From a virus: 27,778 bases of DNA. The position numbers were made by a program, and so were the translations under genes. The stretch lies in IMG/VR virus record IMGVR_UViG_3300048928_000215, positions 1-27,778 of that record; one strand, 5' to 3'. Every line of letters starts with the position of its first letter. The stretch's first letter is position 1. This document shows positions 3,000 to 11,814 of the stretch, piece by piece. The notes under the pieces were generated by a model. It made no database searches. It was not told the DNA's origin and saw only the letters and a program-made list of their open reading frames with translations.

Positions 3000-3868
3000 C
3001 CCCCGACAACATCATCCAGCTGAACAGCAGCAGCAGGGGATTCACCCGTATGGACAACAGCCTGATGGAGGCTTTGGCTACGGTTGACCTGCCAGCGCGC
3101 GAACTGCGCGTTCTCATGGCCATTGCACGGCAGACCATCGGCTATCAACTCGAAACCAAGCGCCTGACCGCCGACGATATCGGCAAGCAGACCAACATGC
3201 GCCGAGACGTCACGTCGAAAGCGATCAGTCATCTCCTTGAGCGTCGAATCATTTTCCGGGTAGGGGGAAGCCGAGGTGATATCGGGATTTCCCCTATTCG
3301 CGAGTGGTCCTTCTATGAGGAAAAACCTGACCGTCTCACTGAGACCAAAACGTCTCACTCAGCCCAAATCGTCTCACTGAGACCTGAGGCGAGTGAGACC
3401 AAAACGGCAACTTGCCTTCTTTATACAAAGAAAGAACCCCTATTAACTCTTTCTTCGAAAGAGATTAATCCGCCCCAAGCGCAATTGGCTCCGCCGAAGC
3501 CTGAGCGCAAGAAGCCGTTCGGCAAAATCCAGATGCTGGCCAACAACCCGAACGCCATCCCTGAGCAACTGCTGGTCGACTGGCTGTCCCTGCGCAAGAC
3601 CAAGCGCGCCGCGACCACCGCGACCGTTTGGGATTCGCTAAACGCCGAACTGGTTAAGTGCAAGACCGATCATGGGATCGACGTGAAGACCGCCATGACC
3701 GAGGCACTGTCCGCTGGATGGCAAGGTTTCAAGGCCGAGTGGATCGCCAAGCGCCTGGCTGAACAACCCTCTGCCAAAACTGCCCCGCAGAGCCGTCACA
3801 CCGGCTTCGCTGACCGCAACTACACCGACGGACTAATCCAGCGGGAGGACGGTAGCTATGCGTTCTGA
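2996..3868 (+). CDS. O-like phage replication initiator
   Basis: This 290-residue protein has an N-terminal Phage_rep_O-type winged-helix region (about residues 12-115). Its features are GFTRMDNSLMEAL near the start, then LPARELRVLMAIARQT and IGKQTNMRRDVTSKAISHL, the recognition-helix region. The middle is a low-complexity linker encoded by iterons (positions 3332-3407). The C-terminal part (about 165-290) probably contacts the helicase loader. The family binds origin iterons inside its own gene and recruits the host helicase through the partner encoded next. The start ATG at 2996 has AGGGAG upstream and overlaps the leader ORF. The gene overlaps the downstream loader by 11 bases. N-terminal motifs, gene order and the origin all agree. 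Confidence 0.85.
   Translation: MTPDNIIQLNSSSRGFTRMDNSLMEALATVDLPARELRVLMAIARQTIGYQLETKRLTADDIGKQTNMRRDVTSKAISHLLERRIIFRVGGSRGDIGISPIREWSFYEEKPDRLTETKTSHSAQIVSLRPEASETKTATCLLYTKKEPLLTLSSKEINPPQAQLAPPKPERKKPFGKIQMLANNPNAIPEQLLVDWLSLRKTKRAATTATVWDSLNAELVKCKTDHGIDVKTAMTEALSAGWQGFKAEWIAKRLAEQPSAKTAPQSRHTGFADRNYTDGLIQREDGSYAF
3332..3471. other. predicted phage replication origin: 19-bp iterons plus AT-rich stretch
   Basis: CGTCTCACT recurs at 3332, 3351 and 3370, an exact 19-base period. Iterons 1 and 3 contain the perfect palindrome GTCTCA-C-TGAGAC (3333-3345 and 3371-3383). Iteron 2 has a decayed right half. A fourth partial unit keeps TGAGACCAAAA at 3394-3404. From about 3411 to 3471 the sequence turns AT-rich (for example CTTTATACAAAGAAAG and TATTAACTC) and contains the hairpin CTCTTTC-TTC-GAAAGAG (3447-3463). 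Lambda ori has the same plan inside gene O: palindromic iterons followed by an AT-rich unwinding region. The origin call is inference from that parallel. Confidence 0.75.
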
Positions 3869-4664
3869 ACCAGTACAACCGACCCCCGAGCTTCCGCCGG
3901 GAACTCGCATCCAGCCCGCCGAATGCGAAACCCACGGTGAGTTCGAGCAGAAGATTTTCTCGGTCATCGGTCGCGAGCTGAAGACCGGTTGCCCTGAGTG
4001 CTCTCGAATCGCCCAGATAGCGACGGAAGAGTCTGAGCGTAAGAGCAAGGCGCTGATGCTCCGCATGGCCATGGAGCGCAAGCTTGGCTCAGCGCTGATC
4101 CCGAAGCGCTTCGCTGGCAAAACCTTCGAAGGCTACGTGGCCACCACCGCCGAGCAGCACAAAGCGCTGAACACCTGCCGCCGGTATGCCACCGAGTTCT
4201 CGCAGATCGCCGAGTCGGGCCGCTGTCTATTGCTGTTGGGGAAACCGGGAACGGGCAAAACGCACCTGTCCGTGGCGATCGCCAACGAGATCATGGCCAG
4301 ATCGAGCGCCACCGCCGTGTACCGCACTGTCGGCTCGGTCTTGCAAGCAATCCGAGCCACCTACGACCGGACCAGCGAGCAGAGCGAAAGCCAGATCTTG
4401 TCGAGCCTCGTCAGCCCGTCGCTCCTCATCCTCGATGAGATCGGCGTCAGCAAGGAAAAGCCCAGCGACTTCGAGCTGACCACGCTGTTCGCAATCATCA
4501 ACGGCCGGTACGAGGAGCAGCGCCCGACGGTGATCGTTTCCAATCTGGATGCCAAGGCATTGCCGGCCGCGATCGGCGAGCGGTGTGCGGATCGTCTGCG
4601 GGAGGGCGGGGTGATCGTCATTCCGTTCGAATGGGAATCTCAGCGCGGCAAGGAGGGGTTTTGA
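3858..4664 (+). CDS. DnaC/IstB-like helicase loader (P-gene analogue)
   Basis: This 268-residue AAA+ ATPase has an N-terminal putative zinc site (Cys23, His26, Cys45, Cys48 in CETH...CPEC), as in phage DnaC-type loaders. The Walker A motif is GKPGTGKTH (128-136) with Lys134. The Walker B motif is LLILDEIG (189-196) with Asp193 and Glu194. A sensor-like VSNLD and an arginine-containing C-terminus (GERCADRLREGG) follow. The family loads the replicative helicase DnaB at the origin. It overlaps the O-like gene by 11 bases, and its GGGAGGA ribosome binding site lies within that gene's end, so the two are translationally linked. Origin, initiator and loader form one replication module. Confidence 0.92.
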   Translation: MRSEPVQPTPELPPGTRIQPAECETHGEFEQKIFSVIGRELKTGCPECSRIAQIATEESERKSKALMLRMAMERKLGSALIPKRFAGKTFEGYVATTAEQHKALNTCRRYATEFSQIAESGRCLLLLGKPGTGKTHLSVAIANEIMARSSATAVYRTVGSVLQAIRATYDRTSEQSESQILSSLVSPSLLILDEIGVSKEKPSDFELTTLFAIINGRYEEQRPTVIVSNLDAKALPAAIGERCADRLREGGVIVIPFEWESQRGKEGF

Positions 4665-5984: not shown

Positions 5985-6061
5985 AGGAAATATTCGAAAT
6001 TTTGCAGGTAGTCATCACTGTGGTGGCGTTTTCTTGGGTCTGCTTGGAGGGGCGCGCATGA
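5981..6061 (+). CDS. 26-residue hydrophobic peptide
   Basis: The ORF runs from ATG 5981 to TGA 6061 and overlaps both neighbours as ATGA (5981-5984 and 6058-6061), a mark of coupled translation. The product, MKEIFEILQVVITVVAFSW followed by VCLEGRA, has one stretch of about 15 hydrophobic residues that could span or dip into a membrane. An AGAGGG ribosome site lies upstream. It is too short for standard gene callers. Double coupling favours a real gene. Its function is unknown; it may mainly carry ribosomes to the downstream regulator. Confidence 0.5.
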   Translation: MKEIFEILQVVITVVAFSWVCLEGRA

Positions 6062-6735
6062 AGTTGATCAACGCAAGGCAGGTATGGACAGAATCGCAGC
6101 ACGAATCGAACGCGTCGATCAGCGCTGTGGCTATCGACAAGGCGGAATCGGCGCCGGTACAGAAGGGCAGCCGAATGCGCCGCCATGAGGCCGTGTTTGC
6201 TGCCTTGGGGGATGACAAGGAAGAACGCATCCAGATCGTTCGGCAGAAGATCAGTATCAGCGAGACTCGCCGCACACCTATTGGTCGATCTACCGCCCGC
6301 GCCGCGCACCTGGCAACCATCGGCAAGGTCTTGCGCGCCATCGACACGCTGCCGTTCCAGGTACAACAGTTCGGGCACTACCTGTATCACCCGGCGATGA
6401 CCATGCGCCACGTCATGAATGCGGTGTTGCTGATTACCGCCCATGCCAAGTTGCCAGACCTCACTTCGGCCAAGCGCGTGAAGGCGCAGTACCTGGTGAC
6501 TCTGGCGTTGCAATCGTACAAGGGCGAGGTCGTCGGGGCGGCAGAGTGGGGGCCGGCCCGAGTCGCCGCCGAGATGAAGACCTTCTTCGGCGTGACGATT
6601 GATCCGAAGAACTGGACGCGCGATTGGCTCGACCTATGGGAATCCCTGAAAGAAGTCATCAAAGAAGTGGATATTCAGGCACAGCAGCCGGTATGGCAGG
6701 TCATTCACGCGGAAAAAGAAGAAGAAGCGGCATAA
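6058..6735 (+). CDS. hypothetical protein in the Q (late antiterminator) position
   Basis: This 225-residue protein starts MKLINARQVWTESQHESN. ATG 6058 is preferred over an in-frame ATG at 6034 because GGAGGGG (6046-6052) is well spaced and the ATG overlaps the preceding stop. It is basic in the middle (around residues 40-85, with MRRHEAVFAALGDD and ETRRTPIGRS) and has a Trp-rich C-terminus. It lies last in the early operon, directly before a promoter-terminator pair of the pR'/tR' kind. By position it is the best candidate for the late antiterminator. I recall relatives in Pseudomonas phages but cannot confirm a Q family match, so function is inferred from context only. Confidence 0.8.
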   Translation: MKLINARQVWTESQHESNASISAVAIDKAESAPVQKGSRMRRHEAVFAALGDDKEERIQIVRQKISISETRRTPIGRSTARAAHLATIGKVLRAIDTLPFQVQQFGHYLYHPAMTMRHVMNAVLLITAHAKLPDLTSAKRVKAQYLVTLALQSYKGEVVGAAEWGPARVAAEMKTFFGVTIDPKNWTRDWLDLWESLKEVIKEVDIQAQQPVWQVIHAEKEEEAA

Positions 6736-6740
6736 ACATA

Positions 6741-6769
6741 TTGACATGACGGGGAATTGCGCGTACTTT
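6741..6769 (+). promoter_or_regulatory. strong sigma70 promoter, probable late promoter pR'
   Basis: A perfect TTGACA (6741-6746) is followed by a 17-base spacer and TACTTT (6764-6769), 4 of 6 to the -10 consensus. It starts 6 bases after the stop of the putative late regulator. The only element before the next gene is the terminator at 6812. Confidence 0.8.
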
Positions 6770-6787
6770 TCCCATAGTGCGCAATTC
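6754..6787. repeat. inverted repeat spanning the late promoter -10 box
   Basis: GAATTGCGC (6754-6762) and GCGCAATTC (6779-6787) are perfect 9-base arms around 16 bases that contain the -10 box. The left arm lies in the -35/-10 spacer, where lambda has its Q binding element. The right arm would be in the early transcribed region. A binding site for the late regulator is possible. Confidence 0.6.
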
Positions 6788-6811
6788 ACGCAACACGCAC
6801 ACGAATATCTG

Positions 6812-6837
6812 AACCCGGCCATCGAGCCGGGTTTTTT
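6812..6837 (+). terminator. intrinsic terminator, probable tR'
   Basis: AACCCGGC (6812-6819), the loop CATCGA and GCCGGGTT (6826-6833) form an 8-bp stem that runs into six T residues (6832-6837). Its T tract lies about 60 bases downstream of the presumed start site. In the absence of antitermination it would stop transcripts from the promoter at 6741. Confidence 0.85.
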
Positions 6838-6903
6838 ATTGCTCAATTGCAGGCGAAAGACCGGAAAGACCCTCCTGCTCATTCAATACAAGAGGATCTA
6901 CCG

Positions 6904-7143
6904 ATGCCGCATATCACTCGCTGCAAAATGACTCTTCGCGCCAAAGGACCCGTTCAGGGCTCGTCGGAATCGCTGACCCGTTTGTGCTTCGGCGCTGTGT
7001 GGTCGGCCAACCCTGCGGAAGAGGATGCGATCTACGGCAAGTACACCCCATACGGCGAATACGTCGTGAACGTGGTTGCCGATCGCGCCGGGCAATTCGA
7101 GGAAGGTAAGGACTACTACTTCGATATCTCGCCAGCTTTCTGA
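6904..7143 (+). CDS. small hypothetical protein, first gene after the late promoter
   Basis: This 79-residue protein starts MPHITRCKMTLRAKG. ATG 6904 has GAGGA upstream (about 8 bases); a longer frame from 6847 lacks a ribosome site. The product looks like a small beta-rich domain: LTRLCFGAVW, then YGKYTPYGEYVVNVVAD and a C-terminal GKDYYFDISPAF. No membrane span or catalytic motif is seen. I recall similar small proteins near the lysis genes of Pseudomonas prophages, all without a function. It sits just downstream of the probable tR' terminator, so it would be made once antitermination is active. Confidence 0.75.
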   Translation: MPHITRCKMTLRAKGPVQGSSESLTRLCFGAVWSANPAEEDAIYGKYTPYGEYVVNVVADRAGQFEEGKDYYFDISPAF

Positions 7144-7391
7144 ATTCACCGCAGCCAGGGCGGCCTCACGGATGCCTGGACGTCGATAGCCGGATAGTGC
7201 GACGTACGGAATCAACACCGGCAGCCCGCGCATCCTGCACACCAACGCTTACAGGGTGGCGCGAGACTGGACTGCGAGATCGATGCAAAGGGGCGTCGGC
7301 GCAGAGAAGGTCTTCGGCGGACAGGAGGGGAAAGACCCTCACACCTATTTCGGGCCTCGCATTAAGCGGGGCCTTTCGCGCCAGTCAGAAT
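7144..7391. other. gap without a convincing gene
   Basis: No frame here has both a start with a ribosome site and coding-like composition. One plus-strand frame stays open from about 7190 to 7423 and reads plausibly (for example TYGINTGSPRILHTNAY) but has no ATG until well inside. It may be a decayed gene fragment. The stretch ends with the hairpin at 7353-7376. Confidence 0.4.
7353..7376 (+). terminator. hairpin terminator, weak T tract (left of twin pair)
   Basis: GGCCTCGC (7353-7360), the loop ATTAA and GCGGGGCC (7366-7373) are followed by only three T residues. It closely resembles the hairpin at 7718-7742. The two bracket the leftward gene 7392-7616. Confidence 0.55.
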
Positions 7392-7616
7392 CTACAAAGA
7401 TCGGTGCCAAGTTACTTCGGTGATGCCGCTTAATCTCACGAAATCTCGCATCGCTCTGATTGTTCCGCCGCATGGCGGACCTGAACCAAGATTGCTGCCA
7501 GAGTGAATTAAGGATAGGTAGCAAGCATCCGCCTCTGTCATGGTTGTCGAGGGATGGGCGAACACGACGCGGTACCCGTTGAAGCTGTAGCAGATAATAA
7601 AATTCGAGAGCTTCAC
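7392..7616 (-). CDS. small leftward protein, DUF6555-like
   Basis: From the GTG at 7616-7614 it encodes 74 residues beginning MKLSNFIICYSFNGYRVVF and ending ITEVTWHRSL. GAGG sits 6 bases upstream of this GTG. Alternative starts are ATG 7628 and GTG 7634. The pattern of an opening beta hairpin (F-I-x-Y-x-x-x-G), MTEADA in the middle, and a closing G-I-x-x-V-x-W-R resembles small Pseudomonas proteins I know as DUF6555, from memory only. It is opposed to all neighbouring late genes and bracketed by two nearly identical terminator hairpins, so it looks like an inserted cargo gene. Its role is unknown. Confidence 0.6.
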   Translation of the reverse strand: MKLSNFIICYSFNGYRVVFAHPSTTMTEADACYLSLIHSGSNLGSGPPCGGTIRAMRDFVRLSGITEVTWHRSL

Positions 7617-7717
7617 GGCGGGCCTCATGGCCACTGGCTATCATCTGTTGAGCCTAGTATGGGTGCGAGTAAATTGCTCTTGCCTCCGGTCTGAATGATT
7701 CAAAACTCTTTATTTGA

Positions 7718-7742
7718 GCCTCGCCAATGTGCGGGGCTTTTT
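7718..7742 (+). terminator. intrinsic terminator (right of twin pair)
   Basis: GCCTCGC (7718-7724), the loop CAATGT and GCGGGGC (7731-7737) are followed by five T residues (7738-7742). It lies about 100 bases upstream of the holin start, so lysis gene expression would also need antitermination or a promoter in 7743-7839, where I see no clear one. Confidence 0.75.
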
Positions 7743-7839
7743 CGTTTTCGGCTCCACCACACCCATCGCTCTGAGCTGGGAGTGCTGCTGGAGCCGGATC
7801 TATCAATCTCCCCGAGAGGGAGCCATTGGATTCTCAATC

Positions 7840-8154
7840 ATGCCGGACAGACCTGAGAGCTGGGCCAAGTTCTGGGAGGCAATGAGCAATCCACTCCTAC
7901 AGGGCGCAATTATGGCGATCCTCATCTCCCTCTTGCGCGTGCTCTATGACGCCAAAGAAACCAGCAAGCGCCGAATCATCTTCGAAGCGCTGATCTGCGG
8001 AGGCCTGAGCCTGTCGGCCAGTAGCGTTATCGCCTGGATGGAGTGGCCATCGAATCTTTCAGTTGCTGCCGGCGGGGCCATCGGCTTCCTCGGCGTTACT
8101 GCCATTCGCGAAATGGTGACCCGCTTCCTTGGTCGCAAGGTGGATTCACTATGA
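7840..8154 (+). CDS. lambda S-type holin
   Basis: This 104-residue protein starts MPDRPESWAKFWEAMSN. It has three hydrophobic segments: GAIMAILISLLRVLY (about 23-37), IFEALICGGLSLSASSVIAW (about 47-66) and LSVAAGGAIGFLGVTAI (about 73-89). The C-terminus is basic (RFLGRKVDSL). Segment spacing, GxIGFxG in the third span and size fit the class I lambda S holin family, which opens lesions in the inner membrane at a set time. ATG 7840 is chosen because residues before it (frame from 7714) are encoded by the terminator region. The ribosome site is weak. The gene overlaps the Rz-like gene by ATGA. Confidence 0.88.
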   Translation: MPDRPESWAKFWEAMSNPLLQGAIMAILISLLRVLYDAKETSKRRIIFEALICGGLSLSASSVIAWMEWPSNLSVAAGGAIGFLGVTAIREMVTRFLGRKVDSL

Positions 8155-8528
8155 AGGCGTTCGCAGCTGCAGCAATCATCGCGCTCGTTGCCTGCCTGTT
8201 GCTGGGTATTCAGCATTACCAGGTCATTGCGCTTGAGGGGCAGGTGACGATCGAGGCCAAGAGCAAGAACGACGCCATCGCGGCCAACACCGAAAGCCAG
8301 GCCACCATCACCACGCTACGGGCCGAAGCCCAGCGCAATGCTGACTACCTGAAAGACTTGAACAAGCGAATCAAGGCCAGCGAAGACAAAGCCAAAAAGG
8401 CGAGGAAAGACTTTGAAGATCTCAAGCGCAACAGCAAGCCTGTTCGTGATTGGGCTGCTCAGCCTCTGCCTGACGGCCTGCGCGGGAAGCCCGGCAGTGG
8501 TGACAAAGACACAGGCCGTAAGAATTGA
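8151..8528 (+). CDS. Rz: Rz-like inner-membrane spanin (i-spanin)
   Basis: This 125-residue protein has an N-terminal membrane anchor (residues 1-20, MKAFAAAAIIALVACLLLG). A long charged helical periplasmic domain follows (about 30-105, rich in Lys, Glu and Ala with coiled-coil character, for example LKDLNKRIKASEDKAKKA), and the C-terminal tail is rich in Pro, Gly and Asp. This is the Rz plan: it pairs with Rz1 to fuse the inner and outer membranes in the last step of lysis. ATG 8151 overlaps the holin stop. The Rz1 gene begins inside it in the +1 frame. No endolysin lies between holin and Rz. Confidence 0.88.
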   Translation: MKAFAAAAIIALVACLLLGIQHYQVIALEGQVTIEAKSKNDAIAANTESQATITTLRAEAQRNADYLKDLNKRIKASEDKAKKARKDFEDLKRNSKPVRDWAAQPLPDGLRGKPGSGDKDTGRKN

Positions 8529-8691
8529 AGCGCCCGAGCTAATTCCCTGTGAGCGGATCGACGCGGCCGAGTCTGAGGCTGGCCTTCGCCTGAACGGCGA
8601 TGTGTGGGAGCTCAAGGATCAGGCCATCAAACTGCTGGACACGTGTGCCGACCAGGTGGACGCCCAAATCAAGCGCAGTCAGAGCAAGTAA
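8413..8691 (+). CDS. Rz1: Rz1-like outer-membrane lipoprotein spanin (o-spanin)
   Basis: This 92-residue protein has a TTG start at 8413 and a well-spaced AGGAAA ribosome site. The signal peptide (1-22) ends in the lipobox LTAC with Cys23 as the lipidated residue. The mature part begins with a Pro-containing stretch and continues as a helical domain (LKDQAIKLLDTCADQVDAQ). The gene starts inside Rz in another frame, with 116 bases of overlap, and runs past its end, the partly embedded Rz/Rz1 arrangement. The protein is anchored in the outer membrane and binds Rz across the periplasm. Two further Cys residues (46 and 77) may form disulfides. The TTG start suggests low expression relative to Rz. 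Confidence 0.88.
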   Translation: MKISSATASLFVIGLLSLCLTACAGSPAVVTKTQAVRIEAPELIPCERIDAAESEAGLRLNGDVWELKDQAIKLLDTCADQVDAQIKRSQSK

Positions 8692-8693
8692 TC

Positions 8694-8729
8694 CGCGACA
8701 CGTTTCGCGAATCATCAAATTGTGTCGCG
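8694..8729. repeat. long inverted repeat, copy 2 (CGCGACAC-N20-GTGTCGCG)
   Basis: The arms CGCGACAC (8694-8701) and GTGTCGCG (8722-8729) flank 20 bases that begin GTTT and end AAATT. The right arm extends outward to the palindrome TGTCGCGACA (8723-8732), the mirror image of copy 1. It lies between the Rz1 stop (8691) and the gene at 8745. Confidence 0.8.
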
Positions 8730-8744
8730 ACATTGGAGAAGGGC

Positions 8745-8933
8745 ATGACCAACGTCACCCGCTTGCATCACGCATTGCCGCTGAGTCCCGCCATAAACCA
8801 GGCGATCACTGAACTGGATAGCGCCATTGCCAAAGCGATTGACGCTGCCAAGGCTGCCGGTCTCCCTCAGGGCTTGGTCGTATCACTCTTGCACGGGCAC
8901 GCCCAGGTGCAGACCAACATGATGGTGAGCTGA
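8745..8933 (+). CDS. small hypothetical protein
   Basis: This 62-residue protein starts MTNVTRLHHALPLSPAIN and is predicted to be helical, with LDSAIAKAIDAAKAAGL and a C-terminal GLVVSLLHGHAQVQTNMM. GGAGAAGGG precedes the ATG, which excludes the longer frame from 8604 that would overlap Rz1. The stop directly abuts the next ATG (TGAATG), so it is coupled to the HslV-like gene. I recall similar short proteins with LLHGHA in Pseudomonas prophages but not a function. It is the first gene after inverted repeat copy 2. Confidence 0.75.
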   Translation: MTNVTRLHHALPLSPAINQAITELDSAIAKAIDAAKAAGLPQGLVVSLLHGHAQVQTNMMVS

Positions 8934-9377
8934 ATGACGACCATTGCCTACAAAGAAGGCGTGATCGCCTATGACTCGCGTGAAACCCTGGGCACAACTA
9001 TCGTCGATGACGACTGCGACAAGTGTCAGGCCTCAGGCGGGGTTCAGTTCTTCTGTACAGGCTCGACACCCGACTACGACGCGCTGATAGCTGCCTACTT
9101 CGGTGAAAAGTCATCCGTGGTGATAGAGGCTGGCGGTATAGCTCTGGACAATGGGGTGTTGTGGTTGCTCGGGTACAGCGAAACTACTGGCTTCTGGAAG
9201 GATCGTCTCAGGCTGGATAACCCTTTCGCCGTCGGCAGCGGCTCAAGCCATGCCCTCACGGCAATGGACATGGGCGCCACTGCCTATCAGGCTGTAGAAA
9301 TGGCCATGAAGCGCGATAGCTGCACTGGCGGCAAGATCAGAACGCTCACTGTGAAGGCGTCCGAGCCTGCCGCCTGA
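8934..9377 (+). CDS. HslV/proteasome-like Ntn hydrolase
   Basis: This 147-residue protein begins MTTIAYKEGVIAYDSRETLG. After Met removal the N-terminal Thr would be the nucleophile. Alignment with E. coli HslV (TTI, then IAGDGQATLG, then Lys33) puts Asp14 and Lys30 (Met-inclusive numbering) at the catalytic Asp17 and Lys33. CTGS (41-44) fits the oxyanion glycine, AVGSGSSHA (99-107) fits the conserved Ser129 loop, and DSCTGGKIRTL (128-138) fits the final Asp/Ser loop. The residues therefore point to an active self-compartmentalising peptidase-type fold, though shorter than HslV (about 176). No ATPase partner is encoded nearby. Substrate and assembly are unknown. It might process capsid or host proteins; this is speculation. 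Confidence 0.75.
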   Translation: MTTIAYKEGVIAYDSRETLGTTIVDDDCDKCQASGGVQFFCTGSTPDYDALIAAYFGEKSSVVIEAGGIALDNGVLWLLGYSETTGFWKDRLRLDNPFAVGSGSSHALTAMDMGATAYQAVEMAMKRDSCTGGKIRTLTVKASEPAA

Positions 9378-9381
9378 TGAA

Positions 9382-9711
9382 TCAACTGCGGAACGTTTCA
9401 ACTCTCTGCGGCATAGCAGGGAACCACAGCCATTCGCCGTCCTGCATCGGGGTATTGAAGTTGCGCTTCACCTCGAACACACGATCATCCCCATTGGTAC
9501 CGGTTACCGACAGGATGTGCGCCGATTGCCAGCCCTTGAATTGTTCGCTCTTCAGGCCAAGCCAGCCTGCGCGGAGCACGAGCGCGCTGGTATTGTCTGC
9601 GCCGGTGTAAATGGTCCGCTCTCCAGGGTTAAAGGTGAATGGAATACCGGTCAATCGAACCGATTCATCATTGTCCGTATAGACCTCAATGTCCGCAGTA
9701 ATTAATCCCAC
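9382..9711 (-). CDS. hypothetical leftward protein
   Basis: This 109-residue protein comes from GTG 9711-9709, chosen because AAGGAG lies 7 bases upstream. A longer frame from ATG 9786 would add a hydrophobic Trp-rich N-terminus (MLKQGLKWWLVAGIGGG), possibly a signal-like segment, but has a poor ribosome site. The protein looks beta-rich: IEVYTDNDESVRLTGIPFTF, then ERTIYTGADN and a C-terminal GEWLWFPAMPQRVE. The gene is opposite to the late genes and its stop is four bases from that of the HslV-like gene. If the long form is right, its start lies only 14 bases from that of the small terminase. The family is not recognised. Confidence 0.65.
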   Translation of the reverse strand: MGLITADIEVYTDNDESVRLTGIPFTFNPGERTIYTGADNTSALVLRAGWLGLKSEQFKGWQSAHILSVTGTNGDDRVFEVKRNFNTPMQDGEWLWFPAMPQRVETFRS

Positions 9712-9800
9712 GATGCTGCTCCTTGCGTTTAGTTGACCGCCACCAATACCGGCAACAAGCCACCATTTCAATCCCTGCTTTAGCATTACCGAGAACGCCC

Positions 9801-10325
9801 ATGACGACCAAGCTACCCGACTGGGAGGCAATCGAACGCGCCTACCGGGCCGGGATGCTTTCTTTGCGAGCAATGGCGGAACAGTTCGGCTCCAAGGAGT
9901 CGACAATCCGCAGTAGGGCGTCCAAGAACGGATGGAAGATGGATCTGACCGCCCAGGTAAAGGCGGCGACCAAAGAGAAGCTTTCGCGCAGTACTTCGCG
10001 CACGACTGTCGCGCAATCCGATGTGCGCGAAGATGCGCAGATTATCGAGGAAGCCTCCGACGTGGCGGCCTCTATCGTGCTGTCGCACCGCACCGATCTT
10101 GCGCAATGGCGTGGTATAGCCAACAAGTTGCGCGATGCGCTCGATGCGCTACCGGTTACGGAAGAAAACCACGGCGACTTCGCCCGATCCTTGAACGCTG
10201 GTGTTGACGCACAGCTGAAGGTCATCAAGGGCGAACGCCAGGCCTATAACCTCGACACGGAGACAGGTGACAAGACAGTCAGCGACCTGGCCGCGATGAT
10301 GGACGAACTATCGAAGGAAGCCTGA
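9801..10325 (+). CDS. terS: small terminase subunit
   Basis: This 174-residue protein starts MTTKLPDWEAIERAYRAG. The N-terminal half holds a helix-turn-helix like those of terminase small subunits (LSLRAMAEQFGSKESTIRSRASKNGW, residues about 20-45). A helical oligomerisation region and an acidic C-terminus follow. The role is to recognise the packaging site and regulate the large subunit encoded one base downstream of its stop. ATG 9801 is chosen because the frame upstream (from 9723) overlaps the divergent gene. The ribosome site is modest (GAGA). Its position next to the large terminase and its DNA-binding motif make this a confident call. Confidence 0.85.
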   Translation: MTTKLPDWEAIERAYRAGMLSLRAMAEQFGSKESTIRSRASKNGWKMDLTAQVKAATKEKLSRSTSRTTVAQSDVREDAQIIEEASDVAASIVLSHRTDLAQWRGIANKLRDALDALPVTEENHGDFARSLNAGVDAQLKVIKGERQAYNLDTETGDKTVSDLAAMMDELSKEA

Positions 10326-10326
10326 C

Positions 10327-11814
10327 ATGAAGCCCGAGCACATGAAGCTGCTCCGGGACAAGCGTTGGAGGCTGAACAATCTCTACTTCATCACGGACAA
10401 GCAGGGCAAAAAGGTCCGCTTCCGGATGACGGACGAGCAGATCGAGTACTTCGATGGAATGCACACCCGCAACATCATCCTGAAGGCTCGGCAGCTCGGC
10501 TTCACCACTGAGTGCTGCATCATCCAGCTCGACGCCGCTCTATTCGAGTCGGCCAAGTGCGCGCTGATCGCTCACACCCTGAACGATGCCAAGCGTCTGT
10601 TCCGGGAGAAGGTGAAGTACGCCTACGACAACCTGCCGGCCGAGATTCGCGCTGCCAACCCGGCGAGCAACGATGCTGCCGGTGAGCTTGTTTTCAGCAA
10701 GGGCGGCTCGCTCTACGTCAGCACCTCATTCCGGGGCGGCACGCTGCGTTACCTGCATGTGTCCGAGTTCGGGAAGATCTGCGCCAAGTTTCCACACAAG
10801 GCCCGCGAGATCGTCACCGGCGCCTTCGAGGCTGTGGCCACCGATTGTTTCGTCACCATTGAGTCGACGGCAGAGGGCAGGGCCGGCTACTTCTTCGATT
10901 ACTCGCAGAGTGCCGAGCGCCAGCAACTGGCTGGTGTGCCCCTGGGCCTGCTGGATTGGAAGTTTTTCTTTTTCAGCTGGTGGAAGAACAAGGCCTACTC
11001 GCTGGACTCCACCGACGTGATGATCCCGCAGCGCCTGACCGATTACTTCAACGAACTGCACGCCAAGCACGGGATCGTCACGAACGACGGCCAGCGCGCC
11101 TGGTACGCGGCCAAGGAGAAGACCCTCGGCGACGACATGAAGCGGGAATATCCGTCTCTGCCGGCCGAAGCCTTCCAGCAGTCGATCGAGGGCGCTTACT
11201 ACGCCCAGCAGTTCACCAAGCTTTACGCCAATCAGCGTGTCGGTGTGCTGCCGAACAACAACCATTTGCCGGTGATGACTTTCTGGGATATCGGCGTCGG
11301 CGACTCCACGGCCATTTGGTTCGTGCGTCAGGTCGGCGAGGAATATCACATCATCGATTACTACGAGAACTCGGGCGAAGGTCTGCGCCACTACATGAAG
11401 GTGCTGAAGGATCGTGGCTACACGTATTCAGAGCATTGGGGGCCGCATGACATCGATAACCGCGAGTTCGGCAGCGATGCCAAGACCCGCCGCGAGCTGG
11501 CCCGTGAGGGCTACGACATCGACGGGCAGAAGTACTGCATGACATTCCAGGTCGTTCCAAAGCTCGGTATCAACGACGGCATTGAGCAGGCTCGCGAGAT
11601 CCTGCCCAAGTGCGCCTTCGATGAATCCAAATGCGAGGAAGGAATCGCCTGCCTTGAGAACTACCGCAAGGAATGGGACGACAAGCGCGGCTGCTGGAAA
11701 GACAAACCGCTTCACGACTGGACGTCTCACGGCTCCGACGGATTCCGGTACTTCGCTGTCGCCAAGAGCGCAAGGAAGCCGGTCAAATCAATCAAAATGG
11801 GATTTGCACGCTAA
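10327..11814 (+). CDS. terL: large terminase subunit (packaging ATPase and nuclease)
   Basis: This 495-residue protein has an N-terminal ATPase with a Walker A-like LKARQLGFTT (52-61), YVSTSFRGGTLRYLHVSEF including the Walker B end with Glu147, and a coupling motif ESTAEG (179-184). The C-terminal RNase H-like nuclease has Asp321 in TFWDIGVGDS, Asp344 in HIIDYYE, HD at 374-375 and an acidic pair near DGFRYF (471-476). It translocates phage DNA into the prohead through the portal and cuts the concatemer. GGAAG precedes the ATG. Its stop overlaps the portal start by one base (TAATG). Length and motif order are typical. I could not tell headful from cos packaging. Confidence 0.95.
   Translation: MKPEHMKLLRDKRWRLNNLYFITDKQGKKVRFRMTDEQIEYFDGMHTRNIILKARQLGFTTECCIIQLDAALFESAKCALIAHTLNDAKRLFREKVKYAYDNLPAEIRAANPASNDAAGELVFSKGGSLYVSTSFRGGTLRYLHVSEFGKICAKFPHKAREIVTGAFEAVATDCFVTIESTAEGRAGYFFDYSQSAERQQLAGVPLGLLDWKFFFFSWWKNKAYSLDSTDVMIPQRLTDYFNELHAKHGIVTNDGQRAWYAAKEKTLGDDMKREYPSLPAEAFQQSIEGAYYAQQFTKLYANQRVGVLPNNNHLPVMTFWDIGVGDSTAIWFVRQVGEEYHIIDYYENSGEGLRHYMKVLKDRGYTYSEHWGPHDIDNREFGSDAKTRRELAREGYDIDGQKYCMTFQVVPKLGINDGIEQAREILPKCAFDESKCEEGIACLENYRKEWDDKRGCWKDKPLHDWTSHGSDGFRYFAVAKSARKPVKSIKMGFAR

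Follow-up and report, generated by a model that had tools for sequence, protein, structure and literature searches.

The window, a 27,778-base virus record from IMG/VR whose nearest DNA similarity is to Pseudomonas siphophages, carries on its plus strand a complete open reading frame (ORF) at positions 8934–9377 (ATG to TGA), encoding a product of 147 amino acids with the N-terminus MTTIAYKEGVIAYDSR. The gene, designated PPH here after the family to which its product belongs, has a phage setting, with lysis and terminase genes as neighbors in the order Q-like antiterminator, holin, Rz, Rz1, phrog_15190, PPH, small terminase subunit (TerS) and large terminase subunit (TerL), all on the plus strand. 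The Q-like anti-termination gene at the head of the late operon (6034–6735, with the start codon as mechanically listed) was recognized by phrog_304 and the holin gene (7714–8154) by phrog_126 and PF05106, while PHROG matches identified the Rz-like spanin (8148–8528), the Rz1-like spanin in an overlapping frame (8413–8691), TerS (9801–10325, with ATG 9801 as the likely start) and TerL (10327–11814). Downstream of TerL are genes for a portal (PF13264), a Mu F-like protein, a scaffold, a Gp13-like major capsid protein (MCP), connectors and tail proteins; by its Gp13-like MCP, scaffold and Mu F-like protein, the head module is of the SPP1 type.

The PPH start codon directly abuts the TGA of the preceding 62-residue ORF (8745–8933, +; phrog_15190), an arrangement that suggests translational coupling of the two genes. 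We considered the phrog_15190 product as a dedicated partner of PPH and rejected it, as near-homologs are present in just 21 of about 190 PPH loci. A consensus scan of positions 6700–10400, which is weak evidence, detected no sigma-70-like site that would represent a dedicated PPH promoter. As to an AAA+ unfoldase, the only candidate among the scanned window proteins was a DnaC/IstB-like helicase loader (3858–4664), which was discarded; this agrees with the preliminary description of a protease lacking an ATPase partner of phage origin. The interval between PPH and TerS contains a minus-strand ORF of 109 amino acids (9382–9711, −), whose GTG start follows an AAGGAG sequence and for which there was no PHROG match. 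Its position looks like a moron slot, because relatives hold different minus-strand ORFs at this place.

We characterized the 8934–9377 product by profile comparisons. It was matched by PHROG_1040, named "peptidase HslV family", with E = 2.1e-34. The Pfam Proteasome profile remained below threshold (E = 0.0022; 18.1 bits against a cut-off of 22.4 bits), but a search of the PDB with a 54-sequence profile retrieved proteasome beta8 and beta5 (1e-10), and the catalytic motifs coincided in the alignment. NCBIfam gave weak scores only, with no match to an HslV model at E ≤ 1, and the similarity of the PPH profile to host HslV was moderate (hhalign probability 53%). Thus, of the label "HslV" given to this protein in the preliminary description, the superfamily holds, whereas the exact name does not: proteasome beta5/beta8 are the better matches, and the protein fits a separate family. 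That family, PPH, was described by Fuchs et al. 2021 (PMC8665760) as phage proteins of about 140 residues without a propeptide, with the loss of helix H2 as a stated peculiarity of PPH/RPC; the published PPH cluster is KEGG OC.1434257. Relatives are present in 236 GenBank phage records, so the gene is not unusual, contrary to the preliminary description. Comparison with relatives gave dN/dS values of 0.07–0.36, showing that the gene is under purifying selection. The ORF is real and not a chance reading frame, because it has the PHROG_1040 match, relatives in phages, low dN/dS values and conserved residues.

An AlphaFold model of PPH was obtained with a pLDDT of 94 and a pTM of 0.87. It contains helices H1 (residues 45–55), H3 (104–112) and H4 (117–127) but not H2; H3 and H4 are the helices to which ring-to-ring contacts are ascribed (PMC8665760). 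Foldseek searches with this model returned proteasome beta subunits (probability 1.00, E ~2e-8), HslV (1g3i; probability 1.00, E = 7e-8, TM 0.71) and also many phage proteins, most of them without a functional name. The model therefore predicts a compact N-terminal-nucleophile (Ntn) threonine hydrolase with the fold of the proteasome superfamily, and the Ntn fold anticipated from the sequence was recovered.

We then compared the active-site residues with those of the proteasome and of 167 unique full-length PPH relatives. The predicted N-terminal nucleophile, Thr2 (codon 8937–8939), which would be Thr1 of the mature enzyme, aligns with proteasome Thr1; both this residue and the MTT start are conserved in 167/167 relatives, a count biased by retrieval patterns that included MTTIAYK. 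Asp14 (8973–8975; proteasome Asp17) is kept in 164/167, Lys30 (9021–9023; proteasome Lys33) in 166/167 and Gly43 (9060–9062; oxyanion-hole Gly47 of the proteasome) in 165/167. The GSGS motif at residues 101–104 (9234–9245) corresponds to the proteasome GSGS, with Gly101 and Gly103 retained in 166/167, and the D128-S-C-T-G-G133 motif (9315–9332) corresponds to proteasome D166 and S169-GG, with D128 and G132 invariant (167/167) and Thr or Ser at position 131 in 166/167. In the profile alignment to proteasome beta8, T2, D14, K30, GSGS and RDSxxGG all fell on the corresponding catalytic motifs. Since the start codon directly precedes the threonine, no propeptide is needed. As judged from these alignments, the catalytic set is intact, and PPH is apparently a catalytically competent enzyme, predicted to be active. 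The residues singled out in the preliminary description (Thr2/Thr3-Ile4, Asp14, Lys30, CTGS at 41–44 and GSGSS at 101–105) are all present, and its central proposal, that the phage encodes an HslV/proteasome-type hydrolase whose catalytic residues are intact, agrees with the PHROG match, the conservation and the fold model. A few PPH copies in relatives carry D14Y, D14G or D14N (locus L017, 5001–5432; L138; L179), and these copies may be inactive.

To address the genomic distribution of PPH, we compared 191 non-redundant loci that carry it in related phages and prophages; the query biased this collection to the Pseudomonas type. PPH usually lay upstream of TerS, TerL and portal, with TerL proteins of two types that do not cluster together. 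In an alternative arrangement, the place of TerS is taken by a metallopeptidase-like gene (PF18894) together with one for a DUF2280 protein; the putative metallopeptidase, which PHROGs labels a transposase, comes after PPH and before DUF2280 in about 75 loci (for example, L242, 6735–7358). When the TerL type of the window was used as the anchor (about 85% or more identity), PPH was found in 12 of the 57 contigs with enough upstream sequence and was lacking from 45; with the other TerL type it was found in 6/56, making 18/113 viral contigs for both anchors combined. PPH was also absent genome-wide from two complete phages, PseuP_222, which has the same SPP1-type head genes, and PS-1, which has related packaging or head genes. 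An 84-residue family, phrog_30428, occupied the PPH slot in 23 contigs that lack PPH (L286, 5885–6136, and 22 others) against 0/12 that bear it (Fisher p = 0.0008). Farther afield, PPH is upstream of the holin gene in Salmonella SE479 and beside tRNA genes in Erwinia Caitlin. Its optional presence in the TerL-anchored contigs and the exchange with phrog_30428 mark PPH as accessory, carried in the late operon in a swappable slot between the spanin genes and the small terminase gene.

The same slot is used in relatives by acb2, which encodes an anti-CBASS cyclic-nucleotide sponge. The identity of Acb2 was established by PF24729 (E = 4e-19) and the PDB entry for p26 (E = 2e-13); the gene stands just upstream of PPH in relatives (for example, L284, 5007–5237), and PHROGs lists its matches as being of unknown function. 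It is absent from the window. Within 4 kb of PPH, acb2 was found in 34/191 loci, upstream in 33 of them, and the order acb2, small ORF, PPH recurred in the distant Pseudomonas aeruginosa phage HHBS14_1. Among the TerL-anchored contigs, acb2 was present in 6/18 with PPH as compared with 4/95 without it (pooled Fisher p ~0.001, calculated with 4/94, a one-contig difference that does not affect the result), a significance inflated by the mutual relatedness of the contigs; TerL set B alone gave p = 0.11. Conversely, PPH was found in 22/74 unique Acb2-anchored contigs. The association between PPH and acb2 is real yet modest; it is a lead rather than proof, and in part it is what a shared accessory slot gives.

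Given these observations, we consider PPH to be an accessory, ATP-independent N-terminal threonine hydrolase that acts inside the infected cell, without HslU, and is not required for virion assembly, a reading to which we assign a probability of roughly 0.7. The protein would be made late, on the Q-driven transcript. Host methionine aminopeptidase would remove Met1, as the small second residue leads us to infer, and expose Thr2 as the nucleophile; Asp14 and Lys30 would activate it, and Gly43 together with the GSGS loop would form the oxyanion hole. The enzyme could then be a peptidase or an amidohydrolase whose substrate is limited or has been unfolded beforehand, and would serve some phages as an accessory fitness or counter-defence factor that others have swapped for different genes in the slot. 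Degradation of a host factor, one of the roles put forward in the preliminary description, is possible and is the class of function that we prefer.

A specific form of this reading, in which PPH is a counter-defence protease that cuts or removes a host anti-phage component, with CBASS as the nearest candidate, is a possibility that we hold tentatively. An optional slot common to PPH and acb2 makes it unlikely that virion assembly depends on PPH, and it points to counter-defence; the recurring gene order in HHBS14_1, the acb2 enrichment and the optional presence of PPH all agree with it. Against it, late-operon slots gather unrelated accessory genes, most PPH loci, like the window, are without acb2 within 4 kb, the kinship of the contigs weakens the statistics, and no defence target is known. 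It is more doubtful still that PPH, as an ATP-independent enzyme, disarms a defence component, for example of CBASS, and, in some phages, forms a second arm beside the Acb2 sponge within one cassette. If PPH does disarm defence, it would be, as far as the literature that we found shows, the first anti-defence protein with the proteasome fold.

Processing of head proteins had also been proposed, and PPH might accordingly be a head-maturation or scaffold protease that acts during assembly. Its location invites this idea: it adjoins terminase and portal genes here and in most of the roughly 190 Pseudomonas-type loci, separates TerL from portal in phiM5, lies inside the connector genes, between those for head completion and head closure, in Vibrio 1.147.O, and is upstream of scaffold and MCP in other Vibrio phages. 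However, PPH is optional in the TerL-anchored contigs, which speaks strongly against its being needed for packaging or head maturation; it is absent from the 45 contigs with closely related TerL mentioned above, and from PseuP_222 and PS-1. The head genes of the window are moreover of the SPP1 type, and we know of no requirement for proteolysis in heads of this type. In the phiM5 record, presence in particles is noted for portal, scaffold and MCP but not for the peptidase, and elsewhere PPH is near NinG and DnaB (Shewanella 3/49) or opens the terminal repeat (Caulobacter BL47). We thus regard an assembly protease as unlikely in these phages, where PPH is probably a helper inside the infected cell, although a morphogenetic role could apply in distant lineages that have PPH among head genes, such as Vibrio 1.147.O and phiM5.

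We judge it to be just as improbable that PPH is an Ntn enzyme other than a peptidase, namely a specific ligase, a deconjugase or a small-molecule amidohydrolase in the manner of connectase. The relatives of the proteasome do include a monomeric ligase (PMC8665760), and loss of H2 could change the quaternary structure; on the other hand, the active-site set is the canonical one of peptidases, and positive support for such an activity is nil. Least probable of all is the suggestion that PPH teams up with host HslU, or takes the place of HslV, so that degradation comes under phage direction: PPH and HslV share a fold and HslV is encoded in 6/6 tested genomes carrying a PPH locus, but docking on HslU is predicted to be unlikely because PPH lacks the H2 region of about 30 residues that host HslV has between H1 and the next strand, the basic VMKGNAKK before the catalytic lysine of host HslV is replaced by an acidic IVDDDCDK, the profile similarity is only moderate, and no AAA+ partner was found to co-occur with these homologs (PMC8665760).

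Compared with known systems, the accessory hydrolase that we favor most resembles proteasome beta5/beta8, its best matches by both profile and Foldseek, and has equivalents of T1, D17, K33, GSGS, D166 and S169-GG; it differs from mature proteasome beta subunits in being about 50 residues shorter and in having no H2, propeptide or alpha partner. With HslV (ClpQ) it has in common the TTI N-terminus, the aspartate, the lysine and the GSG, besides the fold; by contrast, no hslU lies beside it, and the hosts encode their own HslV. Acb2 is an unrelated protein that is linked to PPH only through the accessory slot that they share in relatives. A literature search for HslV-like or Ntn phage proteins yielded only PMC8665760 as relevant, and the phage Adele paper makes no mention of a PPH-type peptidase. 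From the described PPH/PHROG_1040 family we found no meaningful difference: in every feature compared, including the length class (147 residues), the Ntn core fold, the catalytic threonine, aspartate and lysine with the oxyanion glycine, the absence of propeptide and H2, and the setting in phages of the kind that infects proteobacteria, the 8934–9377 product agrees with it. Thus, we conclude that this protein is one more member of a widespread, already described and functionally uncharacterized family rather than a new kind of protein, and that what is new here is only its context in Pseudomonas-type phages, an accessory slot and the neighborhood of acb2.
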